64,000 nt of DNA from Peribacillus simplex (GTDB lineage Bacteria; Bacillota; Bacilli; Bacillales; DSM-1321), in contig NZ_CP011008.1 of assembly GCF_001578185.1 (NCBI RefSeq), positions 2,942,001 to 3,006,000 of the forward strand, given 5' to 3'. Shown here in pieces: positions 30,937 to 49,169 of the stretch (positions are counted from its first letter, which is position 1; each line of letters begins with the position of its first letter). The position numbers were made by a program, and so were the translations under genes. Below the pieces are notes generated by a model that was not told the DNA's origin, did not search any database, and saw only the letters and a program-made list of their open reading frames with translations.

Positions 30937-31404
30937 CTACATCAACAAATACATAATATAAGGAGCCCCTATTAAAGCGATCATAATCCCCGCAGGTATA
31001 CCTTTGGGTTCAAGTATGTTTCTTCCGATGGTATCTGCCAGAAGCAGCAGCCAGGCGCAGATCAGAATCGCTACCGGCAGGAAGAGCTGATTTCGAAATC
31101 CGACCAGAGCTCTTGCAAAGTGCGGAGCCCTGAGCCCGACGAAGGCGATGCCTCCTGTGACAAGGACAGCTGCTGCTGCAAGCGCAGCCCCCCCCATGGA
31201 AGGATGGCCCAAATGAAAGGCCAGTCTGCACCCCATATGTTCCCTGACAGCCAATTTGCAATAAAAATCCACCTTTTGGCGATCAGCAGATGAAATAAGG
31301 ACAATCACTAGACCTGAGAGGGCCATAGAAAATCCCACCCCGGTTAATTCAACTTTGACTGGCTGCCCGGAAATGGGAAATAAATATAAAAGTAAGCCTT
31401 TGTC
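30937..31404 (-). pseudogene. Siderophore ABC permease remnant (FecCD family)
   Basis: The C-terminus is unmistakable: GGIAFVGLRAPHFARALVG, FLPVAILICAWLLLLADTIGR and EPKGIPAGIMIALIGAPY. The upstream piece PVKVELTGVGFSMALSGLVI and ISSADRQKV is in the same frame. The segment NWLSGNIWGADWPFIWAILP lies in another frame, and the residues normally between it and the C-terminal part are missing. The N-terminal half is absent; the remnant ends beside a terminator hairpin into which an IS later inserted. It cannot make a working permease. Confidence 0.85.
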
Positions 31405-31417
31405 ACTTGAACTATAC

Positions 31418-31466
31418 CCCGGATAACGGACACACATAAAAAAGTGTCCCTTATCCGGGTTTTTTT
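31418..31466 (+). terminator. Terminator hairpin inside the IS left end
   Basis: CCCGGATAA plus GGACAC pair with GTGTCC plus TTATCCGGG, each arm with one unmatched base, followed by TTTTTTT. It stops transcripts entering from the left before orfA. The same structure is present in copy 2 (49014-49062). Confidence 0.8.
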
Positions 31467-31506
31467 ATGTTTCAATAGATGTAATGAGTATGGACGGAGG
31501 GTTTCT

Positions 31507-31932
31507 ATGAGTAAGAATATATATACTGAATTTCAGATTAAAGAACTTGAAAAGAATCCAAATATCATTAGTGCTTCCGAGCGATCTATTTCCTATAGTC
31601 CGGAATTTAAAACAAAAGCTGTTAAGGAATATAAAAAGGGGAAAGCCCCCTCTCAAATTTTCATTGACCAGGGAATTAATCTCGAAATAATTGGAAAGAA
31701 ACAACCCAAACGTTGTCTACAGCGCTGGCGTAGTACCTTTGAAAGGTTTGGTGAGGAAGGCTTCCTTACGGAACGCCGTGGAAAAGGAAGTACAGGACGC
31801 CCCACTTCCAAGCCACAGTCTGTAGAAGATCAACTTAGGAAGGCCGAGGCGAGAATCAAATTCCTTGAAGCAGAAAATGACTTCCTAAAAAAGCTGGAAG
31901 AGCTAGAAAGGCAGGCTCTGAAAAAGAAATGA
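31507..31932 (+). CDS. IS3-family OrfA (DNA-binding part)
   Basis: 141 residues from ATG at 31507, which has GGACGGAGGG upstream; a longer in-frame start at 31444 lies in the terminator hairpin and is rejected. A helix-turn-helix region (SPEFKTKAVKEYKKGKAPSQ, then IGKKQPKRCLQRWRSTF) is followed by a C-terminal leucine-zipper-like coil (LRKAEARIKFLEAENDFLKKL). OrfA binds the IS ends and regulates transposition. Its stop overlaps the orfB ATG, so OrfB is made by coupling or by -1 frameshift. Confidence 0.9.
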   Translation: MSKNIYTEFQIKELEKNPNIISASERSISYSPEFKTKAVKEYKKGKAPSQIFIDQGINLEIIGKKQPKRCLQRWRSTFERFGEEGFLTERRGKGSTGRPTSKPQSVEDQLRKAEARIKFLEAENDFLKKLEELERQALKKK

Positions 31933-32840
31933 TTCTAACTGCTGCTGAGAAGTTCTATCTGATTGAAAGGACGATCAGAATACACCAATTAAAGAAGGCT
32001 GTTTCTTATCTATGCAAATTGGCTGGTGTAAGTCGAAGTGGCTACTATGATTGGTTAAAGGCAGCTCCTTACCGTGAGCTTCGTGAAGAACAGGATGAAT
32101 TGGACATAGAATTGATCAGAAATATTTTCATCAGTAAAAAGGAAAAAGTAGGCGCCCTCCAAATCAAAATGATTATGGAGAATGACTACTCGGCCGTCAT
32201 GAATCATAAGAAAATCAGACGGTTGATGACAAAATATAATCTCCTAGCGAAAATCAGAAGGGCCAACCCGTATCGGAAGATGGCCAAGGCAACCAAGGAG
32301 CACCTTACTTGTCCAAACCTCCTTAATCGTGAATTCAATCAGGAGGTGCCAGGGAAGGTCCTGCTTACTGACATTACCTATCTTTATTATGGGAAAGGCC
32401 AAAAAGCGTATTTATCCTGCGTAAAAGATGCCGCCACAAAAGAAATCGTTACGTACCATTTATCTACTTCATTAGAAATGGATATCGTTTACGAGACTTT
32501 AAATAAGCTAAAGCAGGCTGTGTGTCACGAGTTCCATCCGAGTGCAATCCTTCATTCTGACCAGGGGTTCCATTACACCCATCCGCTATTTCAACGCAAA
32601 GTGAAGGAACTTGGGATAACCCAATCCATGTCCCGCAAGGGAAACTGTTGGGATAATGCGCCAATGGAAAGTTTCTTTGGCCACTTTAAGGATTTGGCAG
32701 AATATAAAACATGTACTAATTTAACGGATGTGAAGGAAGAAATTGATCGAGTTATTGAAGAATATAATGAACATCGTTATCAATGGGGGCTAAGGAAAAT
32801 GGCCCCAGTACAATACCGGGACCATTTATTAGCTGCTTAG
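31929..32840 (+). CDS. IS3-family OrfB transposase (DDE integrase)
   Basis: 303 residues. An N-terminal HTH_21-like region (LCKLAGVSRSGYYDWLK, KKEKVGALQIKMIM) precedes the rve catalytic core. The DDE residues are visible in LLTDITYLYY, ILHSDQGFHYTH and NAPMESFFGHFK. It cuts and joins the element ends, as OrfB or as an OrfAB fusion. No disabling change is seen, so this copy looks active. The stop lies 39 bases before the right inverted repeat. Confidence 0.93.
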   Translation: MILTAAEKFYLIERTIRIHQLKKAVSYLCKLAGVSRSGYYDWLKAAPYRELREEQDELDIELIRNIFISKKEKVGALQIKMIMENDYSAVMNHKKIRRLMTKYNLLAKIRRANPYRKMAKATKEHLTCPNLLNREFNQEVPGKVLLTDITYLYYGKGQKAYLSCVKDAATKEIVTYHLSTSLEMDIVYETLNKLKQAVCHEFHPSAILHSDQGFHYTHPLFQRKVKELGITQSMSRKGNCWDNAPMESFFGHFKDLAEYKTCTNLTDVKEEIDRVIEEYNEHRYQWGLRKMAPVQYRDHLLAA

Positions 32841-32920
32841 GCACTTTTTTATACTGTCCGTAAAATGGGGCACAGTTCAACTTTGGGCAAAGGCTCCTTT
32901 TTTGACGAGTTTCTTCTATA

Positions 32921-33155
32921 TTAATCTTTTAGAAATGTTAGCAACGCTTCATTAAATTCTTTTGGGGTGAGTTGCGTTTAATCCATGCGGACCACCCTTT
33001 ATTAGAGCGGGCTTACTACCAGGAATGGAATCAAATGTACGTTTTCCACTTAACTCAAAAGGTACAGTTTCATCAGAGTCACCGTGAATAATAAGAGTAG
33101 GTATATTGAACTTTTCCAAGCCCCTTCTAAAATCTGTTTTACTAAAGGCCGTTAT
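32921..33155 (-). pseudogene. Alpha/beta hydrolase C-terminal remnant
   Basis: The translation gives DFRRGLEKFNIPTLIIHGDSD, VPFELSGK and IKGGPHGLN, the C-terminal part of a haloperoxidase-like alpha/beta hydrolase with catalytic Asp and His loops. An extra C in the run near 32965 shifts the frame just before the last helix, which continues as FNEALLTFLKD in the neighbouring frame. The N-terminal two thirds, including the nucleophile Ser, are absent. Confidence 0.8.
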
Positions 33156-33376
33156 ATAATCGAGCTATCATCATCCCTAAAACAAAGAAAATGAAATCCT
33201 GCGAATAAGCAAGTATTTGTTAGAAAATCGCATTAAACTGATGAGTGGAAAAGAAAGAAAGAGGGATTTGAAAATAATATTGAAATATCCATAAAAATTA
33301 GACCCTTTATCTATAACCATTTTAAGATATGGCTGTTTTCACATACTTTGTTGCTATTTACCAGGTAGTGAGTTGT

Positions 33377-33504
33377 GGTTGATTTCCCCTCCAGATGCTC
33401 GCTTTCCTTGGTGCGGGCGGTGAGCCTCCTCGGCGTAAACGCCTGTGGGGTCTCACCTGTCCCGCTGCTCCCGCAGGAGTCTCGCACTTCCACTCCAATC
33501 AACC
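33377..33504 (-). repeat. Bacillaceae-type intergenic palindromic repeat
   Basis: A GC-rich 128-bp block with terminal inverted 8-mers (GGTTGATT and AATCAACC) and internal words GAGACTCCTGCGGGAGCAGC, GAGGAGGCTCAC and GAAAGCGAGCATCTGGAG on the minus strand. I recognise these from repeats scattered through Bacillus-group genomes and often mis-annotated as small proteins. The surroundings are much richer in AT. Confidence 0.7.
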
Positions 33505-33557
33505 TTAAATAGTTTCGTTTTAAAAACAACTATCTTTACGAAAAGAGCCTAAAATAT

Positions 33558-33590
33558 AAAACAGTGGGAAATGAATGCTTCCCACTGTTT
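33558..33590 (-). terminator. Terminator after the EamA remnant
   Basis: A perfect 12-bp stem AAACAGTGGGAA / TTCCCACTGTTT directly after the stop on the minus strand, followed by TATATTTT. Confidence 0.8.
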
Positions 33591-34130
33591 CTAACGTTCA
33601 GCTGGTGTTTTCATTAATTGTTTTGATAAGTTGACTGATCTAATTTCACTAACAAATGTAGAGCCTAATCGTAATATCCCACCCAGCATTTGAACGATTG
33701 TCATTTGTTCTAGCAAGATAATTGCAGAAATCAATATAGCTACAAACGGATCTACATAACTTAGTATAGCTATACTCTGCGTTTTTTATTTTTCCATACA
33801 AGGGAAAAATAACCAAAAACCAATCCCTGTATTGATGATCCCTAAAATTAAAATAAAAGGAATGGAAGAACTTAATACTTCAAAAATACCAAAGCCTTCA
33901 GTAAGGAAAACATATGGCATTAGAAGTAATGTGGTTGTTCCAAGCTGAATGATGGTCAGCTCTAACTTTCCCATATTTTTAATTAATTTATTTAAAAGCA
34001 ATAACGCTGCATAAAATGAGCTGCGATTAATCCAAAGGAAATTCCAATAATATCATCTGATCTGGATGCACTCACGCCTTTTCCTACAATCATTAACATA
34101 CCAATGATCGCTACAAATTTCGCTTTTCTT
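33591..34130 (-). pseudogene. EamA/DMT-family exporter remnant
   Basis: The second half of a drug/metabolite exporter can be read in two frames. A 71-residue piece holds TIIQLGTTTLLLMPYVFL and IPFILILGIINTGIGFWLFF; a C-terminal piece in another frame reads QSIAILSYVDPFVAILISA and IVQMLGGILRLGSTFVSE. The shift lies near 33785. Sequence at 34020-34130 is more degraded. About half of the ten-helix protein is gone, so it is not functional. Confidence 0.75.
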
Positions 34131-34155
34131 CAACATTTTAAAAAAAAACAACTTT

Positions 34156-35772
34156 CTATTTCTCCACTTTTTCCTTATTTCTTAATTTCTCCACTTTTTC
34201 GGGAGTTAGGGTGATGTCCCGGACAGGGGAAACTCTTCCCCACTCATCCTTGTGAACGATGTGTTTTCGTTCAAATTTGGTCGGAGTATCTATACCTGCG
34301 GCAGCTGCAAGGTTAAATAGCCCCTCGCGGAGGGAAATCACGTAATTGGCGACTCGGTATTGTTTTTCCTCAATAACCAGACCATCCTGCAACTTTGAAT
34401 CAGTTGTGGCTACTCCTGCAGGGCAATGGTTTGTATGGCAGATTTCAGCCATGATGCAGCCAACGCTAATCATAAAACCGCGGGCTATATTGACTAAATC
34501 TGCCCCCATCGCTAAAGCGACCGCCACTTTATCTGGAGAAGTCAGCTTGCCTGATGCAATCAGCTTGACCCTGTTACGTACACCATATTTTTTTAACATC
34601 TCATCTACAAGTGGCAAGGCTGACATAATTGGGAGTCCGACTGCATCTGCAAGCTCCTGATAGGTTGCCCCAGTTCCACCTTCTCCGCCATCCACCGTGA
34701 TAAAATCAGGTCCTTTACCTGTATCTCTCATGTTTTTCGTCATTTCCTCAAGTGCATCAAGATCCCCCACAACAATTTTGATACCGATAGGCTTTCCGCC
34801 TACATCCCTCATTCTTTCCACAAATTCGAACAATTCATTAAAATTCTTGAATTCATAGAACCGGTTAGGGCTATTGATCGTTTGGCCAGGTTCCACTAGG
34901 CGAATTTGGGCAATTTCTTCTGTCACCTTTTGCCCTTCAATATGCCCACCTCTGATTTTGGCACCTTGTGCCAGCTTAATTTCAAATGCCTTTACTTGCT
35001 CGATTTCACTTTTCTTCTTGAATTCTTCCCAGGAGAACTCCCCACCTGCTGTCCTTACTCCAAACAGTCCCGGACCGATTTGCATTATGATGTCGGGATT
35101 TCCGGAGAGATGATATTTGGAAAGACCACCTTCACCAGTATTCATCCATGTTCCTCCTGCAAGCCCTAATCCTCTCGACAGTGCAGTGATGGCATTCTCA
35201 CCGAGTGCACCGTAGCTCATTGCAGATTGTCCTACGAGCCCCTTTAATTTAAAGGGATTCCGGCATGTGTCCCCTCCGATTATGACAGCATCCTCGTCTC
35301 GTAAAAAGTACGGTTCTATTTGTCTATCTTCCCGCTTCTCCTTTCTGGTCAATAGACCTTCCTCATCTACTTCATATACCTTTGTATTGATTTTTTGGCT
35401 ATTATCTATTCTTAATTCTTCCCGGAGATTGGGAAACATACTATTTCGAATATAGTATCCAGCCTCATTGAAGTCACGTTCCGATCCAAATCCGATTAAA
35501 CGCTCCTTATATTTTCCTGCTTTTACAACATCCTCGAATTCCTTTCTTGAGAAAGGGGTGCCTTCATTATTATTTTCAAATAAATACTGCCTAAGTTCAG
35601 GTCCTATTTGCTCTGTCATGTATCTAATTCGGCCTATTAGGGGGAAATTCCTCAGGATTGAATGTTGTTTTTGTGTATCATCCTTTCGGTAAAAGTACGC
35701 TGCGGCCGCAACTGTCCCTAAAACGGCAGATCCTTTTAAAACTGTAGGAAGGTAATGTTTTAATTTGGACAT
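34156..35772 (-). CDS. yerD: FMN-binding glutamate synthase-like protein YerD
   Basis: 538 residues. A short N-terminal hydrophobic helix (about 10-28) suggests membrane association. The rest is the glutamate synthase central FMN domain: GQSAMSYGALGENA, TGEGG, the flavin-site HIEGQKVTEEIAQIR region, DFITVDGGEGGTGA, and C-IMAEI-C-HTNH-C spacing (C-x5-C-x4-C), the iron-sulfur ligand pattern of GltB. It lacks the glutaminase domain of real GltB, so it probably oxidises or reduces an unknown substrate using FMN. It forms a single gene between a broken exporter and an SDR gene. Confidence 0.88.
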   Translation of the reverse strand: MSKLKHYLPTVLKGSAVLGTVAAAAYFYRKDDTQKQHSILRNFPLIGRIRYMTEQIGPELRQYLFENNNEGTPFSRKEFEDVVKAGKYKERLIGFGSERDFNEAGYYIRNSMFPNLREELRIDNSQKINTKVYEVDEEGLLTRKEKREDRQIEPYFLRDEDAVIIGGDTCRNPFKLKGLVGQSAMSYGALGENAITALSRGLGLAGGTWMNTGEGGLSKYHLSGNPDIIMQIGPGLFGVRTAGGEFSWEEFKKKSEIEQVKAFEIKLAQGAKIRGGHIEGQKVTEEIAQIRLVEPGQTINSPNRFYEFKNFNELFEFVERMRDVGGKPIGIKIVVGDLDALEEMTKNMRDTGKGPDFITVDGGEGGTGATYQELADAVGLPIMSALPLVDEMLKKYGVRNRVKLIASGKLTSPDKVAVALAMGADLVNIARGFMISVGCIMAEICHTNHCPAGVATTDSKLQDGLVIEEKQYRVANYVISLREGLFNLAAAAGIDTPTKFERKHIVHKDEWGRVSPVRDITLTPEKVEKLRNKEKVEK

Positions 35773-35819
35773 TTTATCACCCTTTGCTTCTTATTTTTAG
35801 TGCAAGTTACTCGAGTAAT

Positions 35820-36449
35820 CTATAATCTTTGGAGTGCTTCATGAATCAGAATTTCTCCAGAAGTTACATGGAACGTTTTATTATATACTTCTTTAGTATC
35901 CAGCGCTTTGACCAATACAGAAGCAATATCCTCCTTTGGTATCTCGCCTTTGTCATGCACAATTGATGGTCCAGCTTCAACTTTACCTATTCCCGGCTTA
36001 TCCACAGGCATACTTGTCCGTATGACCGTATATGTAAGCTTTTCCTGTCTTAATAGCTCTTCTGAGTGGTACTTGACACCGTTTGTACTAGAATCTAAGC
36101 TCTCCATTTCTTTTTCTCCCATGGTGTTCATCAAAACAAAGCGCTTTACCCCATGTTTCTTAGCAGCCTCAACTGAGTCTATTACTGACTGATGGTCAAC
36201 CAGTATTGGTTTGCCCTCCCCAGTCCGGGGACTGGCGCTACTCAGGTAGATCACTGCTTCACAGCCTGAAAAAGCACTGGAAAAATCCCTTTTTTCCAAA
36301 GAAACTACATCTCGTGCTCCAAGTTTAACCATTTCCTCAACTTTATTTTCTGCTCCTACCAGTGCTACCGGGTTATGGTGCCTGTCTGCCAGCTGTTTTA
36401 CAACGTGCTCTCCGGTCATGTCCTCTGTTCCTATTACCAGAACTCTCAT
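35820..36449 (-). CDS. NAD(P)-binding SDR/NmrA-like protein (YhfK type)
   Basis: 209 residues. It is an atypical short-chain dehydrogenase: N-terminal strand VLVIGTEDMTGEHVVKQL (a variant of the GxxGxxG dinucleotide site), VIYLSSASP, FVLMNTMGE in place of the usual Ser/Tyr catalytic positions, KYHSEELLRQEKLTYTVIRTSM, and PKEDIASVLVKAL. These proteins bind NAD(P) and act as reductases or redox sensors. The full Tyr-x3-Lys motif is not obvious, so catalysis is uncertain. The ATG follows AGGGAGGTATTAAA. It may share a transcript with yerD 47 bases downstream. Confidence 0.82.
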   Translation of the reverse strand: MRVLVIGTEDMTGEHVVKQLADRHHNPVALVGAENKVEEMVKLGARDVVSLEKRDFSSAFSGCEAVIYLSSASPRTGEGKPILVDHQSVIDSVEAAKKHGVKRFVLMNTMGEKEMESLDSSTNGVKYHSEELLRQEKLTYTVIRTSMPVDKPGIGKVEAGPSIVHDKGEIPKEDIASVLVKALDTKEVYNKTFHVTSGEILIHEALQRL

Positions 36450-37096
36450 TTTAATACCTCCCTGCTAGTTTGATACTATCTATTTACCACTTTAAAGTTT
36501 AATGAAACAATTAAGCGTCTTCGCCGTATCGTTAATTTTAACGATTCTTTGATAGTCCAACTTCTTCAGTGGAAGCAATTAGGCTTTTATTGAACGTACG
36601 TAATCTCAAAATTAATAATCTGACATCAATTATTACTGAAGCTGTAGGAACTAGATTAGTAATTGGAATTAAATAAGAACGAAACCCAACTACTCTGCTC
36701 TTGTAAAATAAATTGGGTTTAATTTGGGTAATTATATAAAACTATACATTAAAGACGATTATTTCCTGGGGAAACAAAACCCGAAATTATCTATTAAAAA
36801 TATTAATTTTTTATGTATTCACTCCATACATTCCATAGTTAATCGCACCATACTTTCTTACGAACGCCATATTGAGGAATTCCGCACGAAGGATACTGCC
36901 ATCTATAAAGTATAAAAACTTTTATCAATCTGGAAATGAGGGGCCCTATTTTTTTCAAAACTGAAAAATTACTAACTACAGGAATGCTAAACTGACCAGC
37001 TTTCCATATATGAAAAAAGAACCTCTAGTAATATACTAAAGATTCGGGATTAATAAATGTTTTGTAATTTTAATATGTTAAATGAAAGCAATTAAA
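36450..37096. other. Intergenic stretch with a hairpin, no gene
   Basis: About 650 AT-rich bases. A hairpin with AAACCCAA / TTGGGTTT arms lies at about 36682-36720 on the plus strand. Just before it a short open end (30 codons to a TAA near 36675) could be the tail of a lost gene. A 63-codon frame at 36724 has no ribosome site and is not credible. Confidence 0.45.
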
Positions 37097-37279
37097 TTAA
37101 TAGATTTCCATAATACGAGATAAACGAATAGAGAAAATCTTTTGATTTTCATCTTTTAAGGAAAGAGTTTGTTCATTAAGGTTAAGTTTATGCAATTGAC
37201 CCTTGCATGTTTTTAATACTCCTTCTTTATAATAAATGATGGTCGTTATGCCCTTTTTTTTCAACGATTTCAAGATCAT
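37097..37279 (-). CDS. Small basic protein of unknown function
   Basis: 60 residues from the ATG at 37277-37279, chosen because AAGGGAGATAATCAG precedes it; an in-frame start 27 bases upstream lacks a site. The sequence ILKSLKKKGITTIIYYKEGVLKTCKGQLHKLNL continues into SIRLSRIMEIY. Alternating strands with Gly/Lys turns suggest an SH3-like or YolD-like barrel, but no family is certain. A near-consensus cre sequence lies about 105 bases upstream. Confidence 0.6.
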   Translation of the reverse strand: MILKSLKKKGITTIIYYKEGVLKTCKGQLHKLNLNEQTLSLKDENQKIFSIRLSRIMEIY

Positions 37280-37382
37280 CTGATTATCTCCCTTCTGTCT
37301 ATTCAATCATTTATTTAAAATTGTATGATAATTGGTGCAAAACTATGAAACAATTAGGATATGTATATTATACAACGAAAAT

Positions 37383-37396
37383 CGTAAGCGTTTTCA
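37383..37396 (-). promoter_or_regulatory. Near-consensus cre site
   Basis: Minus strand TGAAAACGCTTACG matches TGWAANCGNTNWCA at 13 of 14 positions (last base differs). It lies upstream of the small minus-strand gene at 37279. Chance occurrence is possible. Confidence 0.35.
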
Positions 37397-37729
37397 TTAT
37401 TGTTGTGAACAATTTGTGAAGGTTTGAACATTGGAATATTTTGGGGAAATTAGAGCAGGCTAGGAAATGGTAAAAATCCATGAAAAAAATGAATTTAAAG
37501 TGAATCGGCATTAAATTCTCGTCTGAGTTGGATAAAATTTCAATTTATAATCATAGGTGGATATGTATGAGTTGCAATTATTTTTTCGAGAACAGCAACT
37601 GGCTTTTGACAAGGGTGAAAAATCGCTTTTCCACTAACCATAGGTGCTCCATAAGAAGCCTTATCATAATAAAAATTAAATGTTCTTTTTGTCCCTTTAG
37701 TATAGGAAATAAAATATTCTCCTATTCAA
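37397..37729. other. Intergenic, nothing recognised
   Basis: AT-rich sequence between the cre-like site and the flotillin terminator. The open frame at 37528 runs antisense into the flotillin remnant and lacks translation signals. Confidence 0.4.
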
Positions 37730-37764
37730 AAAAAGGTAAGAGCATATTTGTGCCCTTACCTTTC
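37730..37764 (-). terminator. Terminator of the flotillin remnant
   Basis: AAAGGTAAG (37732-37740) and CTTACCTTT (37755-37763) form a 9-bp stem extended by GC pairs. It sits just after the floT-like stop on the minus strand. Confidence 0.8.
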
Positions 37765-37782
37765 TTCATTTATTCTTCACCG

Positions 37783-38286
37783 TTACTCTTCCTTGCTTGC
37801 TGCCATATTCATGCTCGCTTCGACATTCTCCTGGCTGATGGTGGTGAATGGTAAATTTCGTTTTCCTGAGAAATTCTCAAGCAAGTCTTTGACATCAATT
37901 CCCGAAGATGCCTTTAATGACTCTTGCAATGTTGCCATTAAATCCGTTGCATATCCTGTCACTTTATTAGCCCCGCCATTCGCACCGCTTCCGCCTGTGT
38001 CCACTACAGTGATTTTGTCTATATTACTAAGCGGGCTAGCAACTTGTTTTGCATATTCAGGCAGCATTTTCAAAATCATGTCCATTACGGCGGCTTGCCC
38101 GAACTGTTCAAAAGCTTCAGCTATTTTCTGCTTGGCTTCTGCTTCTGCTACCCCTTTTAACCTGATGATTTCCGCTTCTGTCGTACCTTGTGCCCTTTGG
38201 GCGTCCGCTTTAGCAAGACCGTCCATTCGAACACGTTCCCCTTCCGCTTTTGTAAAATTTCTTTGCCCGGTCCAAGTAATCCACAT
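37783..38286 (-). pseudogene. floT: Flotillin FloT C-terminal fragment
   Basis: About 160 residues match the C-terminal third of Bacillus FloT/YuaG: the Ala/Glu-rich coiled repeats (AEGERVRMDGLAKADAQRA, AEIIRLKGVAEAEAKQKI), then FEQFGQAAVMDMILKMLPEYA, ASPLSNIDKITVVDTGG and SSGIDVKDLLENFSGK. Full FloT is about 510 residues. The N-terminal membrane hairpin and SPFH domain are absent, and the NfeD-like partner gene usually upstream is not here. A fortuitous ATG at 38284-38286 precedes unrelated residues. The fragment cannot form membrane flotillin assemblies; an intact copy probably lies elsewhere. Confidence 0.85.
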
Positions 38287-42141: not shown

Positions 42142-44017
42142 ATCGAGTAGGAGGAGGCGCCTAGCCTCCGACCTCTCACACCACCGTACGTACCGTTCGG
42201 TATACGGCGGTTCAGTTTAAGTCTGACGTAGTTTTGTATATCGTTCATATAGATTTACTAACCCATGATGGAGCCAATAAACATTATTAAGGGTTTTGTC
42301 TAGAATAGGACTATGCGCTATGCGCCAATAACCCTTTCTGCTATTTCCCCATTCATATGCTTTTCCAAATGGGACGCCTAATCCTTTGAGTTTCCTCACC
42401 CTCGTTCTTGGCAATTTCCATTGCTTCCATAGGCACATCCTGAGTCTTCTTCGAATCCATGAATCTAAATTCTTCAATACGTTCGGAGTATCAATGAGGG
42501 CGAAATACCCCATCCAACCTCTAAGGTATTGCTTTAACTTATTTATTCGGAGTTCCATGGGTATCGGTAATTTTCTCGAGGTCATTTCCCTGATTCGTTT
42601 CTTTACCCTCTTCATCGTTTGTTTAGCCAGTAGAACCTTCGGGTTCTTCTTTGACTTCGTGAAACTAAAACCGAGAAACGTTCTGTTCCAAGGGCGATCA
42701 TACTTCGACTTCTCGTAGTTGACCTTTAGCTTCAGTTTATTTTCAATGAATCTTGAGATATTTCCCATTGCACGTTTGGCGGCTTTTCGTGTCTTCACAA
42801 AGATAGTACTGTCATCCGCATACCTTACGAATCGAAGATTGCGTTTCTCTAGTTCTTTATCTAAATCGTCTAACATGATATTAGATAATAAAGGACTTAA
42901 CGGACCTCCTTGCGGAGTTCCCTCCTCACTTTTATGAAAAAGTCCGCCTATCATAATGCCTGCTTGAAGGAAATTACGAATCAGTTTGAGAACTCGTTTA
43001 TCTTCAATTTTCCGCTCTAACATTCCCATGAGCTTGTCCTGATTCACTTTATCGAAGAACTTCTCCAAATCCATATCCACTACCCATGTATAACCTTCGG
43101 TTATATAGGACTTTGCCTTTCGAACCGCCTGGTGCCCTTGTTTGTTAGGGCGAAATCCATAGCTATTCTCCGAAAAGGTTGAGTCATATATCTTGGTCAA
43201 TATTTGGGCAATGGCTTGTTGAATGAAACGGTCTAGAACGGTTGGAATACCCAAAAGCCGAACTCCGCCGTTTGGTTTCGGGATTTCGATACGACGGACG
43301 GGCTGCGGTTGATAGGTACCCTGTAAAAGGGCTGTTTTCATGTTGTACCATTCGGTTGCGAGGTGCGGTCTCAGGTTTTGAACGCGCATTCCATCTACAC
43401 CATGGCTTCCCTTATTTCTTTCTATACGCTTCAATGCCTATATTAAGTTTTCCCTCTCTAATATCTGTTCCATTAACATCGTTGATATCCTTTCTACGTG
43501 GATAAATGGTCTATTTGTGCCTTTATCTGCTCCACCCTTTTGAGGTTCCCCATGTATTCACCACTTCTTCCTTCAAATAAGTTCCATTAGGAATTGTTTG
43601 CTTCTTCGCAGATAACGAACGCCTAGTATTCATCCTCCTTAATCTGTTCGGTCCTTCCTTATCTTCTCGAGTAGACAAGTACTATGACCTCTGCTGACTT
43701 CTGATGATTCAGCTGTCCATCACTGGACAGGTTACCAAGTGTACTTGGCTGTCATCAGACCTCCCCAATCTTTCCCTCCATCTATCTGCTTCATTTACTC
43801 TGTACCACCTTCGGCAGTAAGGACTTTGTTTTGTTTCGCAAACTCATCCAATGATACCTAGCCTTATATGAAGTTCGTGTTCCTCAGACCGGAGGTTTGC
43901 CACTTGCTTCCTTCAGATTCCACGTCACCGTGGACACCCTTGCATTAAGCTAACCACTACTACTGCCTTCATGGTTCGGGACTTTCACCCTATAGATTGC
44001 ACCCATGCCGGGCGCAC
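42142..44017 (-). mobile_element. Group II intron, class C-like
   Basis: 1876 bases on the minus strand. The 5' end is GTGCGCCCGG at 44017, the usual GUGYG start. The 3' part carries domain V-like pairing around the ACGGTACGTACGGTGG word and ends CTACTCGAT at 42142 (domain VI and AY end). A maturase frame lies inside. The 5' exon ends in a terminator hairpin plus TTTTTC immediately before the intron, the insertion context known for class C introns. The 3' exon begins TTATGGCACT. Exact ends are inferred from motif positions. Confidence 0.85.
42217..43479 (-). pseudogene. Intron reverse transcriptase/maturase with early stop
   Basis: The reverse transcriptase has GVRLLGIPTVLDRFIQQAI, GFRPNKQGHQAV, DMDLEKFFDKVN, EGTPQGGPLSPLLSNIML and the catalytic RYADD, then the maturase domain (RTFLGFSF, LKQYLRGWMGYFALI, RRRLRMCLWKQW). 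There is no endonuclease domain, as in class C introns. The natural ATG (43477-43479, after AAAGGATATCAACG) is followed by MLMEQILERENLI and then TAG at 43438-43440, where relatives read Gln. Only re-initiation, for example at TTG 43432-43434, could make the 405-residue remainder. Confidence 0.8.
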
Positions 44018-44042
44018 GAAAAAGGTTGCCGCAGCAACCCTT
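44018..44042 (-). terminator. Terminator of the lipoprotein gene, abutting the intron
   Basis: Minus strand GGTTGC and GCAACC form a 6-bp stem with a short loop, followed by TTTTTC and then the intron 5' end. It lies 37 bases after the stop of the gene at 44080. Confidence 0.85.
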
Positions 44043-44079
44043 TGTTAAACTATCGACCTTTTAGTTGAAGAATGGTTAA

Positions 44080-44586
44080 TTAAAACTTAATGTTCAATAA
44101 TTCTTTCATTTCAAGAAGAACATCAGAATGTTTTTCTTTTGATAGATACATCATTTTCTGTCCTGCTCCATTTGCTTCTTGCTTCTTTCCGTTCGGTTCT
44201 TGAAACATAATCCTTCCATCACTAAAAAAATTCATAGTGTATACTTTGTTATCCATGGTTTCTTTATCGGATAATATAAAAAAGTAATTCCCTTTTTTAT
44301 TTAATTCTTTACTCTTCTCCAATAGCTCCTTATTAGGAGGTTGCACAACTTCCATTTTGTTCACTTTTTCTATAAAAGCTTGTATTTCATTAATATCTGT
44401 AATGACCTTTGAAGTTGACTCGGAAGATACACCGTCCTCATCAACACCTTGCACTAATAAAGTTGTATATTCATCTATATTAGGTATTTCTAAAATTTCA
44501 CTTTTCGTTTTTGTAGTATCTAAACTACAAGCATTTAAGAATACTATCATTAAAGTGCAAAAAGAAAACATCTTGAAAAATCTCAA
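44080..44586 (-). CDS. Small lipoprotein of unknown function
   Basis: 168 residues. TTG at 44584-44586 is used because GGAGGGATGAAAT precedes it with good spacing. The signal peptide ends in a lipobox (VFLNACSL), so the protein should be anchored on the outer face of the membrane. The mature part is Lys/Glu-rich with DEYTTLLVQGVDEDG, an IQAFIEKVNKMEVV helix and YTMNFFSDGRIMFQEPNGK. I recognise no named family. Its terminator was the landing site of the group II intron. Confidence 0.75.
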   Translation of the reverse strand: MRFFKMFSFCTLMIVFLNACSLDTTKTKSEILEIPNIDEYTTLLVQGVDEDGVSSESTSKVITDINEIQAFIEKVNKMEVVQPPNKELLEKSKELNKKGNYFFILSDKETMDNKVYTMNFFSDGRIMFQEPNGKKQEANGAGQKMMYLSKEKHSDVLLEMKELLNIKF

Positions 44587-44684
44587 ATTTCATCCCTCCA
44601 TTTCTTCCTTCTACATTATATGAAAATTGGAAAATTATCCATGATTATTAAACTATCCTGCCCCGATAGTTTAAGTACTATCAT

Positions 44685-45303
44685 TCACAATCTCAATAGA
44701 GTAGAACCTATTAATTGACCACTAAGTAAATCATATTCCAATTGGATTTTCACGCCTGCCGTATTACTACTCCCACCAGAACCTCGATAGTCAGTGGCGA
44801 AATGATCAGGCAGTTGAAAAACTGTCGCATCTAAAATACGGATACGATTGAAAGTAGAGATCATGTGTGCAGAAAGCGATTGATTTGAACAGAGTTTTTG
44901 TGTGAGAAGAGAAGTAAAGACTTCTCGAAGAAATGTGACAGCTGCTGGATTAAAGCGTTGATTCAGCCCTTCTGGGCTTATTAATACACCCGTCGAAGCC
45001 TCTAAACGACTACATAATTGCGTAAGTGATGTACTAGCGACTTCTTGGCTGAGCCAAACGCAAAGGGCGATAAGTCCATTTGCTTGATACTTACTAGATC
45101 GTTGTACAAAGCCCACCTGTTTGGCAGTTTCTTGTATGACAATTGGAGATAGAAAACGTTGTAATTCTTGTGCAAAAAGTGTCAGTTCACTGGAGATAAT
45201 AGGATTCATAAAAAAACACCATCCTTTCTCGTAAACTTCTTACAATAAGAATAGCGTTATTTCATTCTTGAAGGTATTGTTTAAACTTAGCTTGATGGCG
45301 ATG
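44685..45303 (-). mobile_element. Truncated IS231-like copy (left end and 5' half)
   Basis: The left inverted repeat CATCGCCATCAAGCTAAG (minus strand) lies at 45286-45303, outside a GGGTACCACCA-type word. The transposase starts at 45207-45209 and runs 174 residues. It covers the N-terminus and first catalytic Asp region (RIRILDATVFQLPDHFA, GSGGSSNTAGVKIQLEYDLLSG), then leaves the family sequence after about codon 166. It is a different variant from the copy at 49170 and lacks its right end. Confidence 0.85.
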
Positions 45304-45314
45304 GGGTACCACCA

Positions 45315-45423
45315 CATGCCCATCAAGGTAAGATATCATAATACCCCTAGAACGAAAATTTTGTGCATCTTACTCATTTTTATCGTTTTGGGGTAACTCG
45401 TTATTGTTAGCTTGATGGCGATG
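45315..45423. mobile_element. 109-bp mini-cassette with IS231-like ends
   Basis: The left end CATGCCCATCAAGGTAAG (45315-45332) faces a right end GTTAGCTTGATGGCGATG (45406-45423), inverted repeats of the IS231-like family. Only 73 AT-rich bases with no coding sense lie between. It is preceded by GGGTACCACCA and followed by GGGTAGAGTCA, 11-base words that partly agree. This is the organisation of a non-autonomous MITE/MIC mobilised in trans. Confidence 0.55.
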
Positions 45424-45618
45424 GGGTAGAGTCAGGAAAATCGGATTTACAACGCTAAGGAAGTTTTCCCCCAATAAAAAAACGATTTCTAGTTTAAGGA
45501 ATCGACTTTTTTTATTTTCTTATTTCACTAACGCACCCGTTACTTTAAGTACATCTCTTCACAATCTTTTAACTAAATCGACGGTTCTTATTAATAGTTC
45601 CTAGGAGGGGTACCACCA
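45424..45618. other. Spacer between IS231-like ends
   Basis: AT-rich; holds a hairpin-like CGATTTCT / AAGGAATCG pairing followed by a long T run near 45490-45520 (terminator-like) and ends with the GGGTACCACCA word at 45608-45618. No gene. Confidence 0.4.
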
Positions 45619-45806
45619 CATCGCCATCAAGCTAACAACATAAATTAATAGAGCCAAATAATATTGATTCAAAACTACCCAGTACTGGGAAATTAGGCAT
45701 GTCAAAGAAACCTTGAAAAAAGCGATATTTTTTGCTAGGCAGCTTGTCTATCCTTCACCGTCGTTTGATACACAACCCCAAGAATATCAAAGACAGTCAT
45801 CTTCTG
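45619..45806 (-). mobile_element. Right-end remnant of another IS231-like copy
   Basis: On the minus strand the sequence encodes KMTVFDILGVVYQTTVKDRQAA and a stop at 45735-45737, the C-terminal end of this transposase family. It then runs to the right inverted repeat GTTAGCTTGATGGCGATG at 45619-45636. The rest of the transposase is missing. Confidence 0.7.
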
Positions 45807-45974
45807 TTGATTTAATGTGAAGAGCGATTAATGGAATCTCATCATAAAACATACATAGATGGAGGGAGATGAATTAAATAAAAAGAGAGTAAATCATCTT
45901 TTTTATTTGTTTGTCCTGAGAGAAAGTATTGATCATAGATAGGGGGTTCTGACGTAAAAGTGTTAAAATGTTGA

Positions 45975-45999
45975 AACAGCACCCCTGAACGGGTGCTGT
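45975..45999 (-). terminator. Terminator of the small coiled-coil gene
   Basis: ACAGCACCC and GGGTGCTGT form a perfect 9-bp stem. It lies immediately after the stop at 46003 on the minus strand. Confidence 0.8.
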
Positions 46000-46002
46000 G
46001 AA

Positions 46003-46185
46003 TTAAACTAGTTCATCGTTCTGTTTTTTTAGGAACTTGTTTTCCAACTCTAATTGCTTCATTCGTCGTTGTAATCCTAAATTCTCTAAGTCTTTTTCTA
46101 ACTCAGATGATAAATCAGTTCGTTCTTTAGCATTCTCCATTTGTTCTCTAGTAGTTGCAAACCTCTTTTGTTCTTTTGAATTCAT
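46003..46185 (-). CDS. Small coiled-coil protein
   Basis: 60 residues from ATG at 46183-46185, which follows AAAGGGGCTGTTAAT; the longer in-frame start has no site. Nearly all residues are charged or Gln/Leu with heptad spacing (LSSELEKDLENLGLQRRMKQ then LELENKFLKKQNDELV), so a coiled coil is likely. No family recognised. The tail resembles the leucine-zipper region of IS3-type OrfA proteins, but the rest does not. A strong terminator supports expression. Confidence 0.55.
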   Translation of the reverse strand: MNSKEQKRFATTREQMENAKERTDLSSELEKDLENLGLQRRMKQLELENKFLKKQNDELV

Positions 46186-46280
46186 ATTAACAGCCCCTTT
46201 CCCGTGACTTTCTAGGTTCGATATAGCAGGTGGGAAATCCTGCAAAAAACACATTTACCTAGGAATGCAACCGGATTACC

Positions 46281-46318
46281 ACAAAAAAAAAACATCCGTT
46301 TAGATAGGATGTTTTTAT
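46281..46318 (-). terminator. Terminator of the FbpB-like remnant
   Basis: ACATCC and GGATGT arms around a 9-base loop, followed on the minus strand by ten T residues. It lies a few bases after the TAA at 46326. Confidence 0.8.
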
Positions 46319-46325
46319 TCTACTC

Positions 46326-46472
46326 TTATTTCGTTTTCATCTTTATAGTCTGCCCCTGGCGAGCTTCAATTTTTCCCATGACCTTTTTATCTCCTAATAT
46401 TTTATGTCTGTTTTCATTGACCAGGCTTTGAAAAGGAGGGGTAACTTTCTCGTAATGGCACTTCTTTCTTAC
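46326..46472 (-). pseudogene. FbpB-like small basic protein, start codon lost
   Basis: The minus strand reads VRKKCHYEKVTPPFQSLVNE then NRHKILGDKKVMGKIEAR and ends KMKTK. The [FI]-x-x-LVNEN-[KR]-x-x-IL-x-D-x-x-x-M-x-[KR]-IE pattern is that of FbpB-family small basic proteins, which help an iron-sparing small RNA in Bacillus. The position expected for the start is GTA and an in-frame TAA lies two codons before it, with no ATG, GTG or TTG in frame. A strong terminator follows. It was probably a gene until recently. Confidence 0.5.
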
Positions 46473-46705
46473 TGTTTAGTTTAGTACGTAAACAAGTATC
46501 ATTATAACGTTTAATTGAAAATCTTTTTACTTTTCTTAATCATTTATATTCACCCTAAAATTCACCTTAAAATTACATTAAAAATAGATGAAATTAGTAG
46601 AAATCTATAAATTAAGTGGTATAGTAACATCAAAATAAGCCTTCTAGGAAAGAAACTTTATTAAAAATTGGCTATATTAGATTAATAAAGACAGGAGTAA
46701 TTGTA
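46473..46705. other. Intergenic upstream of the 46706 gene
   Basis: AT-rich; contains repeated CCTAAAATTCACCTTAAAATTACATT-like words but no clear gene. It should hold the promoter of the two-gene unit at 46706-47471. Confidence 0.35.
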
Positions 46706-47158
46706 ATGAAAAAATTGACCTTAATTTTTGTATTAATATTTGCAATAGCTTTACCAAATGTTGCTCAGGCAAAAGGATTTAGTGGTCATAGTTCTTTCAG
46801 TCACAGTTCTTCGTTCAGTTCTCATTCCAGTAGGGGCACATATTCAAGTGGAACTTATCATTCTGGATATAAGTCCCCATCAAGCAACGTTACAAGAACG
46901 CCATTACGTTCTAACTCTCACACGACTTATAACCAGACCCCACCTTCACGAACAAAAAGTATACTGACTCATGCTGCAGCGTTTGGAACGGGGGCACTTT
47001 TAGGCCATATGCTTCATCCATTTGGAGGAAATTATAATGGTGCATATGGAAGTAATGCTTCAAATGGATTTTCCTTTTTGGGAATTCTTGTGGATATACT
47101 TTTGATTTTAGTCATCATCTGGGTAATTAAAAACATCTTTACAAGAAGAAGATATTAA
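46706..47158 (+). CDS. Exported Ser/His-rich membrane protein
   Basis: 150 residues. A signal peptide (cleavage near AQA-KG) is followed by a low-complexity Ser/His/Tyr/Gly region (GFSGHSSFSHSSSFSSHSSR and onward, about 23-85). A short hydrophobic AAAFGTGALLGHML and a C-terminal membrane helix (LGILVDILLILVIIWVI) follow, ending in a basic RRRY tail. This places the repeat region outside and the tail inside. I recognise no function; the His content might bind metal. CAGGAGTAATTGTA precedes the ATG. The next gene starts 13 bases after its stop, so the two are cotranscribed. Confidence 0.75.
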   Translation: MKKLTLIFVLIFAIALPNVAQAKGFSGHSSFSHSSSFSSHSSRGTYSSGTYHSGYKSPSSNVTRTPLRSNSHTTYNQTPPSRTKSILTHAAAFGTGALLGHMLHPFGGNYNGAYGSNASNGFSFLGILVDILLILVIIWVIKNIFTRRRY

Positions 47159-47171
47159 GGAGAAATTTAAG

Positions 47172-47471
47172 ATGGAAGTACTATTTAATGAACAAGATCT
47201 TGTGGATAGTATTTGTATTTATATTGCAGTAAAAGAAAGCATCGAACCTCAACAGGTAGAAGTAGATTTGGAGTTTCACCCTTCTCTTGGGCTTGCTGCT
47301 TCTACTTTAGCATTAGGACGTGCCACACGATTGTATGAACAAGACATCATTGATGCTGTTGCAGTATACTTACAGGACTATCATCAGTTCGTTGCTGATC
47401 ATTTACAAGTTAATTTATCCTTTTCTGAAAAGGATGGATTTACTGCATCTATCCAAGTATTAAATAATTAG
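47172..47471 (+). CDS. YxcD-like DUF2653 protein
   Basis: 99 residues. It resembles Bacillus YxcD/DUF2653: EQDLVDSICIYIAVKESIEP and QQVEVDLEFHPSLGLAAS, then a second similar half LYEQDIIDAVAVYLQDYH followed by LQVNLSFSEKDGFTASI. The two halves suggest an internal duplication. Probably cytosolic, with unknown function. AAGGAGAAATTTAAG precedes the ATG. It is the second gene of the unit; the unit's terminator about 105 bases downstream was split by IS3-family copy 2. Confidence 0.8.
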   Translation: MEVLFNEQDLVDSICIYIAVKESIEPQQVEVDLEFHPSLGLAASTLALGRATRLYEQDIIDAVAVYLQDYHQFVADHLQVNLSFSEKDGFTASIQVLNN

Positions 47472-47639
47472 TAATTAGTTTCGACAAGAAACTTCCGGAC
47501 ATTTGTGTACAGGAATTAATAGGTTCTCTCATTATAATTTTGATTCATTATAAAAAGACATATATAAATGTAAAATAAAAAGAAGCCTTAATCTTTATAT
47601 TGAACTGTGCCCCATTTTACGGACAGTATAAAAAAGTGC

Positions 47640-48551
47640 CTAAGCAGCTAATAAATGGTCCCGGTATTGTACTGGGGCCATTTTCCTTAGCCCCCATTGA
47701 TAACGATGTTCATTATATTCTTCAATAACTCGATCAATTTCTTCCTTCACATCCGTTAAATTAGTACATGTTTTATATTCTGCCAAATCCTTAAAGTGGC
47801 CAAAGAAACTTTCCATTGGCGCATTATCCCAACAGTTTCCCTTGCGGGACATGGATTGGGTTATCCCAAGTTCCTTCACTTTGCGTTGAAATAGCGGATG
47901 GGTGTAATGGAACCCCTGGTCAGAATGAAGGATTGCACTCGGATGGAACTCGTGACACACAGCCTGCTTTAGCTTATTTAAAGTCTCGTAAACGATATCC
48001 ATTTCTAATGAAGTAGATAAATGGTACGTAACGATTTCTTTTGTGGCGGCATCTTTTACGCAGGATAAATACGCTTTTTGGCCTTTCCCATAATAAAGAT
48101 AGGTAATGTCAGTAAGCAGGACCTTCCCTGGCACCTCCTGATTGAATTCACGATTAAGGAGGTTTGGACAAGTAAGGTGCTCCTTGGTTGCCTTGGCCAT
48201 CTTCCGATACGGGTTGGCCCTTCTGATTTTCGCTAGGAGATTATATTTTGTCATCAACCGTCTGATTTTCTTATGATTCATGACGGCCGAGTAGTCATTC
48301 TCCATAATCATTTTGATTTGGAGGGCGCCTACTTTTTCCTTTTTACTGATGAAAATATTTCTGATCAATTCTATGTCCAATTCATCCTGTTCTTCACGAA
48401 GCTCACGGTAAGGAGCTGCCTTTAACCAATCATAGTAGCCACTTCGACTTACACCAGCCAATTTGCATAGATAAGAAACAGCCTTCTTTAATTGGTGTAT
48501 TCTGATCGTCCTTTCAATCAGATAGAACTTCTCAGCAGCAGTTAGAATCAT
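47640..48551 (-). CDS. IS3-family OrfB transposase, copy 2
   Basis: 303 residues, identical in translation to the OrfB of copy 1, with the same catalytic motifs (LLTDITYLYY, ILHSDQGFHYTH, NAPMESFFGHFK). Start overlaps the orfA stop by four bases. No lesions, so transposition competence is likely. Confidence 0.93.
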   Translation of the reverse strand: MILTAAEKFYLIERTIRIHQLKKAVSYLCKLAGVSRSGYYDWLKAAPYRELREEQDELDIELIRNIFISKKEKVGALQIKMIMENDYSAVMNHKKIRRLMTKYNLLAKIRRANPYRKMAKATKEHLTCPNLLNREFNQEVPGKVLLTDITYLYYGKGQKAYLSCVKDAATKEIVTYHLSTSLEMDIVYETLNKLKQAVCHEFHPSAILHSDQGFHYTHPLFQRKVKELGITQSMSRKGNCWDNAPMESFFGHFKDLAEYKTCTNLTDVKEEIDRVIEEYNEHRYQWGLRKMAPVQYRDHLLAA

Positions 48552-48973
48552 TTCTTTTTCAGAGCCTGCCTTTCTAGCTCTTCCAGCTTTTTTAGGAAGT
48601 CATTTTCTGCTTCAAGGAATTTGATTCTCGCCTCGGCCTTCCTAAGTTGATCTTCTACAGACTGTGGCTTGGAAGTGGGGCGTCCTGTACTTCCTTTTCC
48701 ACGGCGTTCCGTAAGGAAGCCTTCCTCACCAAACCTTTCAAAGGTACTACGCCAGCGCTGTAGACAACGTTTGGGTTGTTTCTTTCCAATTATTTCGAGA
48801 TTAATTCCCTGGTCAATGAAAATTTGAGAGGGGGCTTTCCCCTTTTTATATTCCTTAACAGCTTTTGTTTTAAATTCCGGACTATAGGAAATAGATCGCT
48901 CGGAAGCACTAATGATATTTGGATTCTTTTCAAGTTCTTTAATCTGAAATTCAGTATATATATTCTTACTCAT
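48548..48973 (-). CDS. IS3-family OrfA, copy 2
   Basis: 141 residues from ATG at 48971-48973, identical in translation to OrfA of copy 1. Same helix-turn-helix and leucine-zipper features and the same GGACGGAGGG ribosome site. The hairpin at 49014-49062 shields it from transcripts entering the element. Confidence 0.92.
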   Translation of the reverse strand: MSKNIYTEFQIKELEKNPNIISASERSISYSPEFKTKAVKEYKKGKAPSQIFIDQGINLEIIGKKQPKRCLQRWRSTFERFGEEGFLTERRGKGSTGRPTSKPQSVEDQLRKAEARIKFLEAENDFLKKLEELERQALKKK

Positions 48974-49169
48974 AGAAACCCTCCGTCCATACTCATTACA
49001 TCTATTGAAACATAAAAAAACCCGGATAAGGGACACTTTTTTATGTGTGTCCGTTATCCGGGGTATAGTTCAATATAACAAGGCTTCTTTTTAATGAGCT
49101 TCTCCTATAATTATAGTGTTTTTTATTAAGATACAGATTTAAGTTCCTTTGCTAAATGGGGTACAGCCA

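Follow-up and report, generated by a model that had tools for sequence, protein, structure and literature searches.

The window analysed here, a stretch of 64,000 nucleotides from Peribacillus simplex, contains two copies of an insertion sequence (IS), each of which lies between the two arms of a palindrome, and this raises the question of what the transposase of the element recognizes in its target. A sequence-only reading of the window had claimed that both copies sit in a hairpin loop and that the element selects Rho-independent terminators. The explanation favoured here, which we regard as likely, rests on sequence analysis without any experiment. The transposase would seek out short palindromes in the target DNA, for the most part intrinsic terminators, and choose their midpoint (the hairpin loop), with a staggered strand transfer of 3 or 4 bp across the loop; the cue, which is inferred, would be the palindrome shape, the transposase recognizing a DNA hairpin that is extrudable or bent. 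Inward hairpins at the ends of the element may, again by inference, act as replacement terminators or as insulation, whereby the splitting of a terminator between two genes would be nearly neutral and outside transcription would be kept off the transposase gene.

The features concerned are given below in positions of the window. The coordinates and the ACT and ATAT duplications that had been assigned to the two copies proved correct on re-reading, and the duplications were read both in the sequence and from the fold of the joined sites.

31408..32879, + strand: IS copy 1, 1472 bp, IS3 family, ends TGAACTATACCCC...GGGGCACAGTTCA
31405..31407, + strand: left target duplication of copy 1, ACT
32880..32882, + strand: right target duplication of copy 1, ACT
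31395..31402, + strand: 5' arm of the terminator split by copy 1, AGCCTTTG, pairing with 32888-32895
32888..32903, + strand: 3' arm of the same terminator (CAAAGGCT, 32888-32895) and T-tract (32898-32903)
31507..31932, + strand: OrfA of copy 1, helix-turn-helix, PF20310, start ATG from sequence
31929..32840, + strand: OrfB of copy 1, IS3 transposase, DD(35)E, NF033516, rve
31418..31466, + strand: left-end inward terminator-like hairpin of copy 1 (31418-31459) with T7 (31460-31466)
32797..32827, - strand: right-end inward hairpin of copy 1, antisense to the end of orfB
47601..49072, - strand: IS copy 2, 100% identical to copy 1 (rounded)
47597..47600, + strand: left target duplication of copy 2, ATAT
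49073..49076, + strand: right target duplication of copy 2, ATAT
47577..47589, + strand: 5' arm of the palindrome split by copy 2, AAAAAGAAGCCTT, pairing with 49080-49092
49080..49092, + strand: 3' arm of the same palindrome, AAGGCTTCTTTTT
47640..48551, - strand: OrfB of copy 2, open reading frame
48548..48973, - strand: OrfA of copy 2, within frame 48548-49036, start set as in copy 1
47653..47683, + strand: right-end inward hairpin of copy 2, inferred from copy 1
49014..49062, - strand: left-end inward terminator-like hairpin with T-tract of copy 2, by likeness to copy 1

Family membership of the element

The element belongs to the IS3 family, whose members transpose by copy-out/paste-in: the OrfB core, the OrfA/OrfB arrangement, the ends and the duplications all match. 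OrfB matches NF033516 with 268.8 bits against a cut-off of 160, carries the further domains rve, HTH_21, rve_2 and rve_3, and contains, as judged by eye, the residues D, D and E with the last two 35 residues apart. OrfB overlaps OrfA, which has the helix-turn-helix, in an ATGA at 31929-31932, the ends are TG...CA with inverted repeats, as expected of the family, and a duplication of 3 or 4 bp, within the 3-5 bp usual for IS3 elements, accompanies seven of the eight copies in the source genome, L005 having none. No intron was found inside the element with Rfam and its internal frames are OrfA and OrfB, so it is unlike a group IIC intron. Neither an element name nor an IS1397 label occurred among the matches listed (the best 60 of at least 5000, in two listings), and a sequence search of the PDB gave three matches only, all weak or partial.

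Insertion sites in the source genome

The 5.5-Mb genome holds eight full copies of the 1472-bp element, the two in the window and six more. When the flanks are joined, both window sites fold as had been claimed, with the insertion in the loop: the site of copy 1 (L003) at -20.6 kcal/mol with a 10-nt loop, and that of copy 2 (L002) at -18.2 kcal/mol; the coordinates of the arms confirm the 10-base loop and the 13-bp stem that had been described. By fold energy, reconstruction yields a clear hairpin, interrupted in its loop, at seven of the eight sites (-16.9 to -43.4), and L004 is a weak site (-2.5). RNAfold, with the duplication centre in the loop, also passes seven, L004 among them, and fails L008, where the insertion is at the loop edge.

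Duplex energy was tried as a hairpin score and rejected as too loose, since 9% of random noncoding positions and 13% of all random positions pass at -12 kcal/mol. A contiguous-stem criterion was used in its place, which in its strict form requires a stem of 8 bp or more with at most one mismatch and at least 3 GC, and a loop of 3-14 enclosing the duplication. Six of the eight sites pass it (L004 and L005 fail), compared to 228 of 6311 random noncoding positions (p = 6e-8).

Since the flanks are inverted repeats, it might be supposed that these repeats are nothing more than a part of the element or its product. This can be set aside with near certainty, because the stems vary by site and are already present where the element is absent. 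The hairpin is found at all 12 empty orthologous sites read, which cover two sites, the only two that could be checked, and its absence from such sites had been named beforehand as grounds for refutation; the empty site L229 keeps the 3' arm of copy 1 and its T-tract.

Survey of related copies and controls

The sequence-only reading had proposed that the element plus one duplication be deleted in relatives and the flanks folded, and the outcome bears it out. Among sites with duplications in related lineages (set 1), 62 of 93 (67%) are strict hairpins, compared to 232 of 7550 random noncoding positions (3.1%); in a second set, from 12 genomes outside the genus, the figures are 28 of 53 against 2.7% of 2226 control positions (p = 5e-30), the first count being 21 of 41 with the ends of three groups uncorrected. 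The control positions are noncoding and were taken from the same flanks, and pairing is enriched about 20-fold over them. In a check that was not conditioned on the insertion point, the strongest perfect hairpin was picked from each 80-nt empty site; its loop centre falls no more than 5 nt from the duplication in 33 of 42 cases (38 of 51 over all sites, with or without a duplication).

One site in three of set 1, and almost half of those in the second set, fail the strict criterion. Many of these misses are, by eye, hairpins with longer loops or two mismatches; L081, L178 and G255 have no hairpin at the insertion site, and G324 is inserted between two palindromes. Copies without a duplication, which are taken to be rearranged, were kept apart and score lower (3 of 9 in one test, 8 of 21 by a 7-bp criterion).

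Three other end classes, whose elements mostly group with IS3 itself, served as control classes, and none of their 17 sites, all from genomes of the same genus, is a strict hairpin (two are by the 7-bp criterion); nor is any strict among 17 control-class sites without an open frame across them. The contrast is weaker with RNAfold: 59 of 93 in set 1, 3 of 17 in the control classes and 772 of 6311 (12.2%) at random. In a tree of OrfB, midpoint-rooted with long branches flagged and its deep order unresolved, InsF of IS3 groups with five of the six control-class lineages (100/100), InsK, the reference for the IS150 subgroup, groups with other lineages (100/100), and the lineage of the window stands apart from both. 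Of the lineages outside the control classes, 31 have a duplication-bearing site, and in 23 of these one or more sites pass as hairpins by the 7-bp criterion (our own count from the tree labels). Hairpin-loop insertion is not special to the element of the window.

These controls also bear on the possibility that there is no target choice at all, insertions in genes having been purged and those at terminators being the neutral survivors. The element brings terminator-like hairpins, and insertions at terminators may therefore be well tolerated. We nevertheless consider this account very improbable, because neutrality does not predict loop-centred placement relative to noncoding controls, because the control classes in the same genus give no strict site, with or without the restriction on open frames, and because the element's own copies are 100% alike (rounded) and therefore recent.

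Geometry, sequence and orientation of the targets

In the 61 strict hits the centres of duplication and loop differ by 0.01 +/- 1.8 nt, an offset constrained by the criterion itself, under which the loop must enclose the site, while the distance to the stem end varies by +/- 4.2 and that to the T-run by +/- 6.0 (55 sites). Stems vary in sequence between sites, the 93 duplications of 3-4 bp comprise 57 different sequences, and the core from -14 to +14 holds at most 0.29 bit per position (50 sites, TGAACT group). Since there is no common core consensus and the insertion follows the loop centre, the palindrome shape is likely the cue, and terminators seem to be targeted as the commonest strong palindromes between genes. 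The claim that the element selects Rho-independent terminators is thereby modified: loops are indeed hit far above background, but the T-tract is not required, as the hairpin sites without a clear one (L068, L070 and L080) illustrate. A separate lineage (L182-L191) sits in a repeated GGGCGC palindrome.

The tails are more informative than the core, with 0.23-0.68 bit on the left and 0.48-1.01 bit on the right, the T-rich right tail being somewhat more informative than the A-rich left one. The A fraction is 0.46-0.66 at -24 to -15 and the T fraction 0.60-0.80 at +16 to +22, and such tails could be a compositional cue. A T-tract accompanies 92% of targeted hairpins compared to 68% of other noncoding hairpins, and T-tracts on both sides 67% of targets compared to 27% of control hairpins. 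It is accordingly conceivable, though we think it unlikely, that the transposase responds to local composition or sequence (A-rich on the left and T-rich on the right, with a flexible AT centre) in place of structure, and that terminators merely share this composition; the concentration of information in the A/T tails and the excess of two-sided T-tracts speak for this alternative. Against it stand the enrichment of pairing itself relative to noncoding positions in the same flanks and the use of hairpins without a clear T-tract, and the insertion is tied more tightly to the loop centre than to the T-run, subject to the caveat of loop enclosure.

A further alternative, which we judge improbable, couples insertion to transcription, the transposase being attracted either by RNA polymerase that has paused at a terminator or by the hairpin in the RNA. 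Targeted hairpins are mostly terminator-like, and their neighbours, where a simple frame finder assigned one on each side, are often convergent genes (34 of 93 sites, against 3 of 93 with divergent genes), as this alternative would have it. Set against it are again the greater variability of the distance to the T-run and the use of palindromes without a clear T-tract, as well as the lack of a preferred orientation. A fixed orientation had been hinted at by the eight own copies, which looked co-directional with the T-tract; larger sets show none (right 18, equal 17, left 16; in a second tally right 23, equal 18, left 20; in a further tally T-tract side right 10, left 6, and genes ++25, --31).

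Hairpins at the ends of the element

Outside the control classes, inward hairpins are present at the left end in 35 of 35 lineages and at the right end in 34 of 35; over all lineages the count is 36 of 43 at each end, compared to 40 of 258 interior windows. The control-class lineages L146, L208 and L217 have a weak hairpin at one end. The left-end hairpin of copy 1 (-25 kcal/mol, z -6.0) is clearly terminator-like, while the right-end hairpin overlaps conserved codons and has a modest T-tract. Neither end hairpin of copy 1 was reported by a pattern scan with an 8-nt loop limit. Covariation gives 34 double-change cells at the right end and 17 at the left. The wobble pairs at the right end (40 G-U against 4 A-C cells; shuffles 45.6 and 12.3) fit the inward, antisense RNA strand, and codon constraint may contribute; the left end gives no strand signal (12 against 14 cells).

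Relation to known systems

How IS3-family transposases choose their targets has long been unsettled, and the rule of stem pairing is directly testable. It suggests a route to harmless spread, in which an element hits a terminator and brings terminators, and a possible tool for structure-guided, sequence-independent insertion at gene ends. A wider proposal, that much of the IS3 family, the IS3 subgroup excepted, forms a "terminator-swapping" clade, in which hairpin structure is recognized irrespective of sequence and the split terminator is replaced by two inward ones that the element carries, one per end, leaving an insertion between genes transcriptionally silent both ways, is offered only tentatively, the chances being slightly against it. 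IS3 elements and nine other families are over-represented between convergent genes, for which a regulatory reason is proposed in the available part of the source (PMC9208149); terminator-loop targeting may help to explain this over-representation in the case of IS3.

Among other mobile elements, group IIC introns use intrinsic terminators as targets; they are retroelements and insert just after the terminator, whereas the present element inserts in the loop. A group II intron placed at a terminator also lies in this window. IS1630 of Mycoplasma, an element of IS30 type and thus of a different transposase family, is reported to insert at inverted repeats whose sequence varies, and duplicates the whole repeat. 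IS150 is the type element of its IS3 subgroup and shares the right-end type of inward hairpin (-22.9 kcal/mol), but the fold of its left end is weak (-9.1 in 75 nt). At its seven sites with a duplication the flanks are complementary over short stretches only, separated by 17-20 nt, in a sample of 10 sites from the best 40 of 3429 matching records, several of them the same site. In E. coli IS150 repeatedly adjoins hok-family genes, beside which its insertions recurred in laboratory evolution (PMC5419217). For IS150 as a hairpin targeter the evidence is suggestive and does not amount to a demonstration.

Palindrome targeting is already known in the IS3 family, in the REP-specific elements IS1397, ISKpn1 and ISPsy8. 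The earlier remark that IS1397 uses palindromic repeats agrees with the literature, as far as the accessible parts of two papers extend, and the same holds for the other two elements; the target specificity of IS1397 and ISKpn1 is there attributed to the transposase, and ISPsy8, in P. syringae REPs, duplicates 3 bp where the axis of symmetry of a predicted hairpin lies (PMC1525189, PMC2817692 for the first two elements; PMC1525189 for ISPsy8). Like these REP/PU-specific elements, the present one inserts at the palindrome centre. Unlike them, it has no single consensus target family over the core positions analysed in the TGAACT group: IS1397 and ISKpn1 hit one repeated palindrome family (REP/PU), and ISPsy8, in the part of its description available, the same point of the same repeat in five of five copies, whereas the element described here enters hairpins of many sequences, mostly terminators, whose stems share no consensus.

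Insertion sites of the element in the genome

The IS3-family element of the window occurs there as two intact copies and a fragment:
31408-32879 (+), intact copy 1
47601-49072 (-), intact copy 2
12395-12903 (-), fragment, 96% identical, covering bases 38-545 only of the 1470-base query (L010)

The element is 1472 bp long, starts with TGAACTATACCCC and ends with GGGGCACAGTTCA, and encodes the products OrfA and OrfB, the latter an IS3-family transposase with a score well over the curated cut-off. The sequence-only reading, which placed both intact copies in terminator loops and proposed that the element selects such targets, gave coordinates and flanks that are exact to the base when the sequence is re-read, and deletion of the element with one duplication does regain a hairpin and its T-tract at each of the two sites. 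A whole-genome search finds 8 full copies (100% rounded identity). Seven of the rebuilt sites, including one at which the insertion is at the loop edge (L008), fold around the insertion at -16.9 to -43.4 kcal/mol; the fold energy of the rebuilt site of L004 is merely -2.5 kcal/mol. Under a strict criterion, which demands a stem of 8 bp or more with at most one mismatch and at least 3 GC, and a loop of 3-14 nt around the duplication, 6 of the 8 sites pass, versus 3.6% of random noncoding positions (228/6311; p = 6e-8).

Orthologous sites without the element, which had been expected to carry the hairpin, do so where they can be compared. At the empty site of copy 1 in one relative (L229, genome G006) both flanks are contiguous and the terminator is present, and the site of copy L006 has the hairpin in 11 of the 11 relatives fetched. 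Three other relatives examined match the right flank of copy 1 alone. The left flank of copy 2 is found in its own genome only (1 of 36 genomes), and no empty site is available for comparison.

Insertion sites of related elements

Loci were drawn from the genus (36 genomes, including the one containing the window), from one scan of genome contigs (the best 80 of 563 relatives) and from IS3-family matches within the genus, extra copies being added by place. The genus is an inference from insertion sites that four of its genomes (G010, G011, G013, G034) share with records named Peribacillus. The 221 loci yielded 138 sites with both ends, distinct by flank sequence, and 83 were left out (74 without callable ends or frame, 9 repeats of a site); a small number of the 138 still represent one site shared between sister genomes or replicons (L142/L143, L013/L016). 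The final count excludes two mis-called loci (L110, L118) and is restricted to sites with a duplication of at least 3 bp. IS3-family lineages of three other end classes, defined by the ends TGGAG/TGGAT, TGATGTTAG and TGGTTAACC, form the control classes. When the flanks of the copies are rejoined, the check suggested with the proposal of target selection, 62 of the 93 sites from all lineages minus the control classes give strict hairpins; the control classes give 0 of 17 (2 of 17 by a looser, 7-bp criterion), and 232 of 7550 noncoding control positions pass the strict criterion.

The end-motif table was compiled after the flanks had been inspected, and a repeat on fresh data was therefore needed. 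For this repeat 60 copies were taken from 12 genomes that belong to the same class but to other genera, as a sample of chosen multi-copy groups, with the remaining listed copies left out. Ends were set from boundaries common to copies, which gave ends to 59; L359 has no partner copy and thus no ends. On the initial end calls, strict hairpins make up 21 of the 41 duplication-bearing sites; after the ends of the groups in G152, G182 and G230 were corrected once their flanks had been seen, and L341, L363 and L364 were dropped, the counts are 28 of 53 strict and 32 of 53 by the 7-bp criterion, and 2.7% of 2226 control positions pass (p = 5e-30 for 28/53). The exceptions are genomes G255 (0/2) and G324 (0/5); in G324, a 1668-bp relative has its five copies (L375-L379) outside any loop, between two palindromes that belong to a single repeat.

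In a midpoint-rooted tree of 43 lineages with IS150 InsK, IS3 InsF and IS2 InsD, whose deep branches are unresolved, the control-class lineages L146, L154, L161, L208 and L217 join InsF with support 100/100, and the sixth and last of that set (L049) adjoins InsD at the root. The non-control lineages are placed elsewhere than InsF, and one group joins InsK at 100/100. With the control classes and two mis-called rows excluded, 31 of 35 lineages have a duplication-bearing site, and 23 of these 31 have at least one hairpin site by the 7-bp criterion. Two Chloroflexota elements of 35-37% identity (L127, L129/L130) have hairpins at 3 of 3 sites.

Separate observations concern two other elements. A longer IS3-family element (TGATACGCTCCCC; G000) has four copies (L169-L172), all of them at one point of a target resembling the terminator at the left end of another IS3 element, possibly a nested insertion. 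Among the fetched copies of IS150 in E. coli (L251-L260), 8 of 10 adjoin the hok-family genes hokA, hokB, mokC and hokE, with a distance to the reading frame of 33 nt in L251 and L260 and of about 71-75 nt in the others, and the 7 of 10 with duplications have short complementarity over a 17-20-nt gap.

Recognition of the target

In a search of the 80-nt empty site that was blind to the insertion position, the loop centre of the strongest perfect hairpin lies within 5 nt of the duplication at 33 of 42 sites. Among strict hits the duplication is within 2 nt of the loop centre in 52 of 61, despite stem lengths varying from 8 to 24 bp, with the caveat that the criterion itself demands a loop enclosing the duplication. 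Across the 50 sites of the TGAACT group, information is at most 0.29 bit at every position from -14 to +14, and the tails are A-rich on the left (0.23-0.68 bit) and T-rich on the right (0.48-1.01 bit). Of 61 targeted hairpins, 92% are flanked by a T-tract on one side or both, and 67% on both; the corresponding figures for 249 other strong hairpins in noncoding DNA are 68% and 27%. Because of these loop-centre, information and T-tract results, the palindrome seems to be the primary cue, with terminators preferred and bidirectional ones above all. Insertion orientation is free, and in the 93 sites with both neighbours called the neighbouring frames converge at 34 and diverge at 3.

Hairpins at the ends of the element

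At the left end, the inverted repeat supplies the 5' arm of an inward-pointing, terminator-like hairpin (-25 kcal/mol, z -6.0 in the window copy), and a second inward hairpin is formed by the end of orfB read inward from the right end (z -4.4 for the 76-nt stretch). A simple pattern scan reported neither. Terminator-like hairpins occur at the left end in 36 of 43 lineages, at the right end in 36 of 43, and in 40 of 258 interior windows; once the six lineages of the control classes and two mis-called rows are set aside, the counts are 35/35 and 34/35. In the control classes a single weak hairpin (-8.2 to -11.7) is present in each of three lineages, at the left end in L146 and at the right end in L208 and L217. 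Compensatory change is seen in both hairpins. For the right-end hairpin, compared in 27 lineages, 95.2% of cells are paired (slid controls at most 47.4%), with 34 double-change cells; for the left-end hairpin, compared in 19 lineages, the figures are 85.9% (slid controls at most 63.3%) and 17. By inference, the end hairpins would block transcription coming in from either side, and may thereby stand in for the terminator split by the insertion. In some lineages, L210 among them, reading by eye suggests that the left hairpin also covers the ribosome site of OrfA.

Comparison with known elements

Two further features of the window were observed:
42142-43934 (-), group II intron, immediately following a terminator hairpin with its T-run
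about 33319-33564, repeat of roughly 230 bp

The repeat has at least 12 further copies in the same genome at 95-99% identity and many across the genus; no Rfam family reaches the gathering score on it. Group IIC introns are placed just after terminators, and the window intron is like them in being sited immediately 3' of one; it is a second terminator-targeting element of the window, unrelated to the IS3-family element.

Among the matches listed from the open-access literature, no title or opening of an abstract describes targeting of terminator loops by an IS3 element, a provisional result since most subscription papers are outside its scope; the part available of a paper on an IS3-family element of Firmicutes does not mention such a target (PMC6211511). 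A survey reports that insertions of IS3 and nine other families are enriched between convergent genes, for which it proposes a regulatory explanation (PMC9208149); terminator targeting may explain part of the IS3 excess. The splitting of REP palindromes at their axis by IS3-family elements is already known (PMC1525189). An IS3-family lineage with the end TGGTATGCTCCCC (L182-L191, G003) lies inside a repeated GGGCGC...GCGCCC palindrome, and resembles a REP-specific element in having a repeated palindrome as its target.
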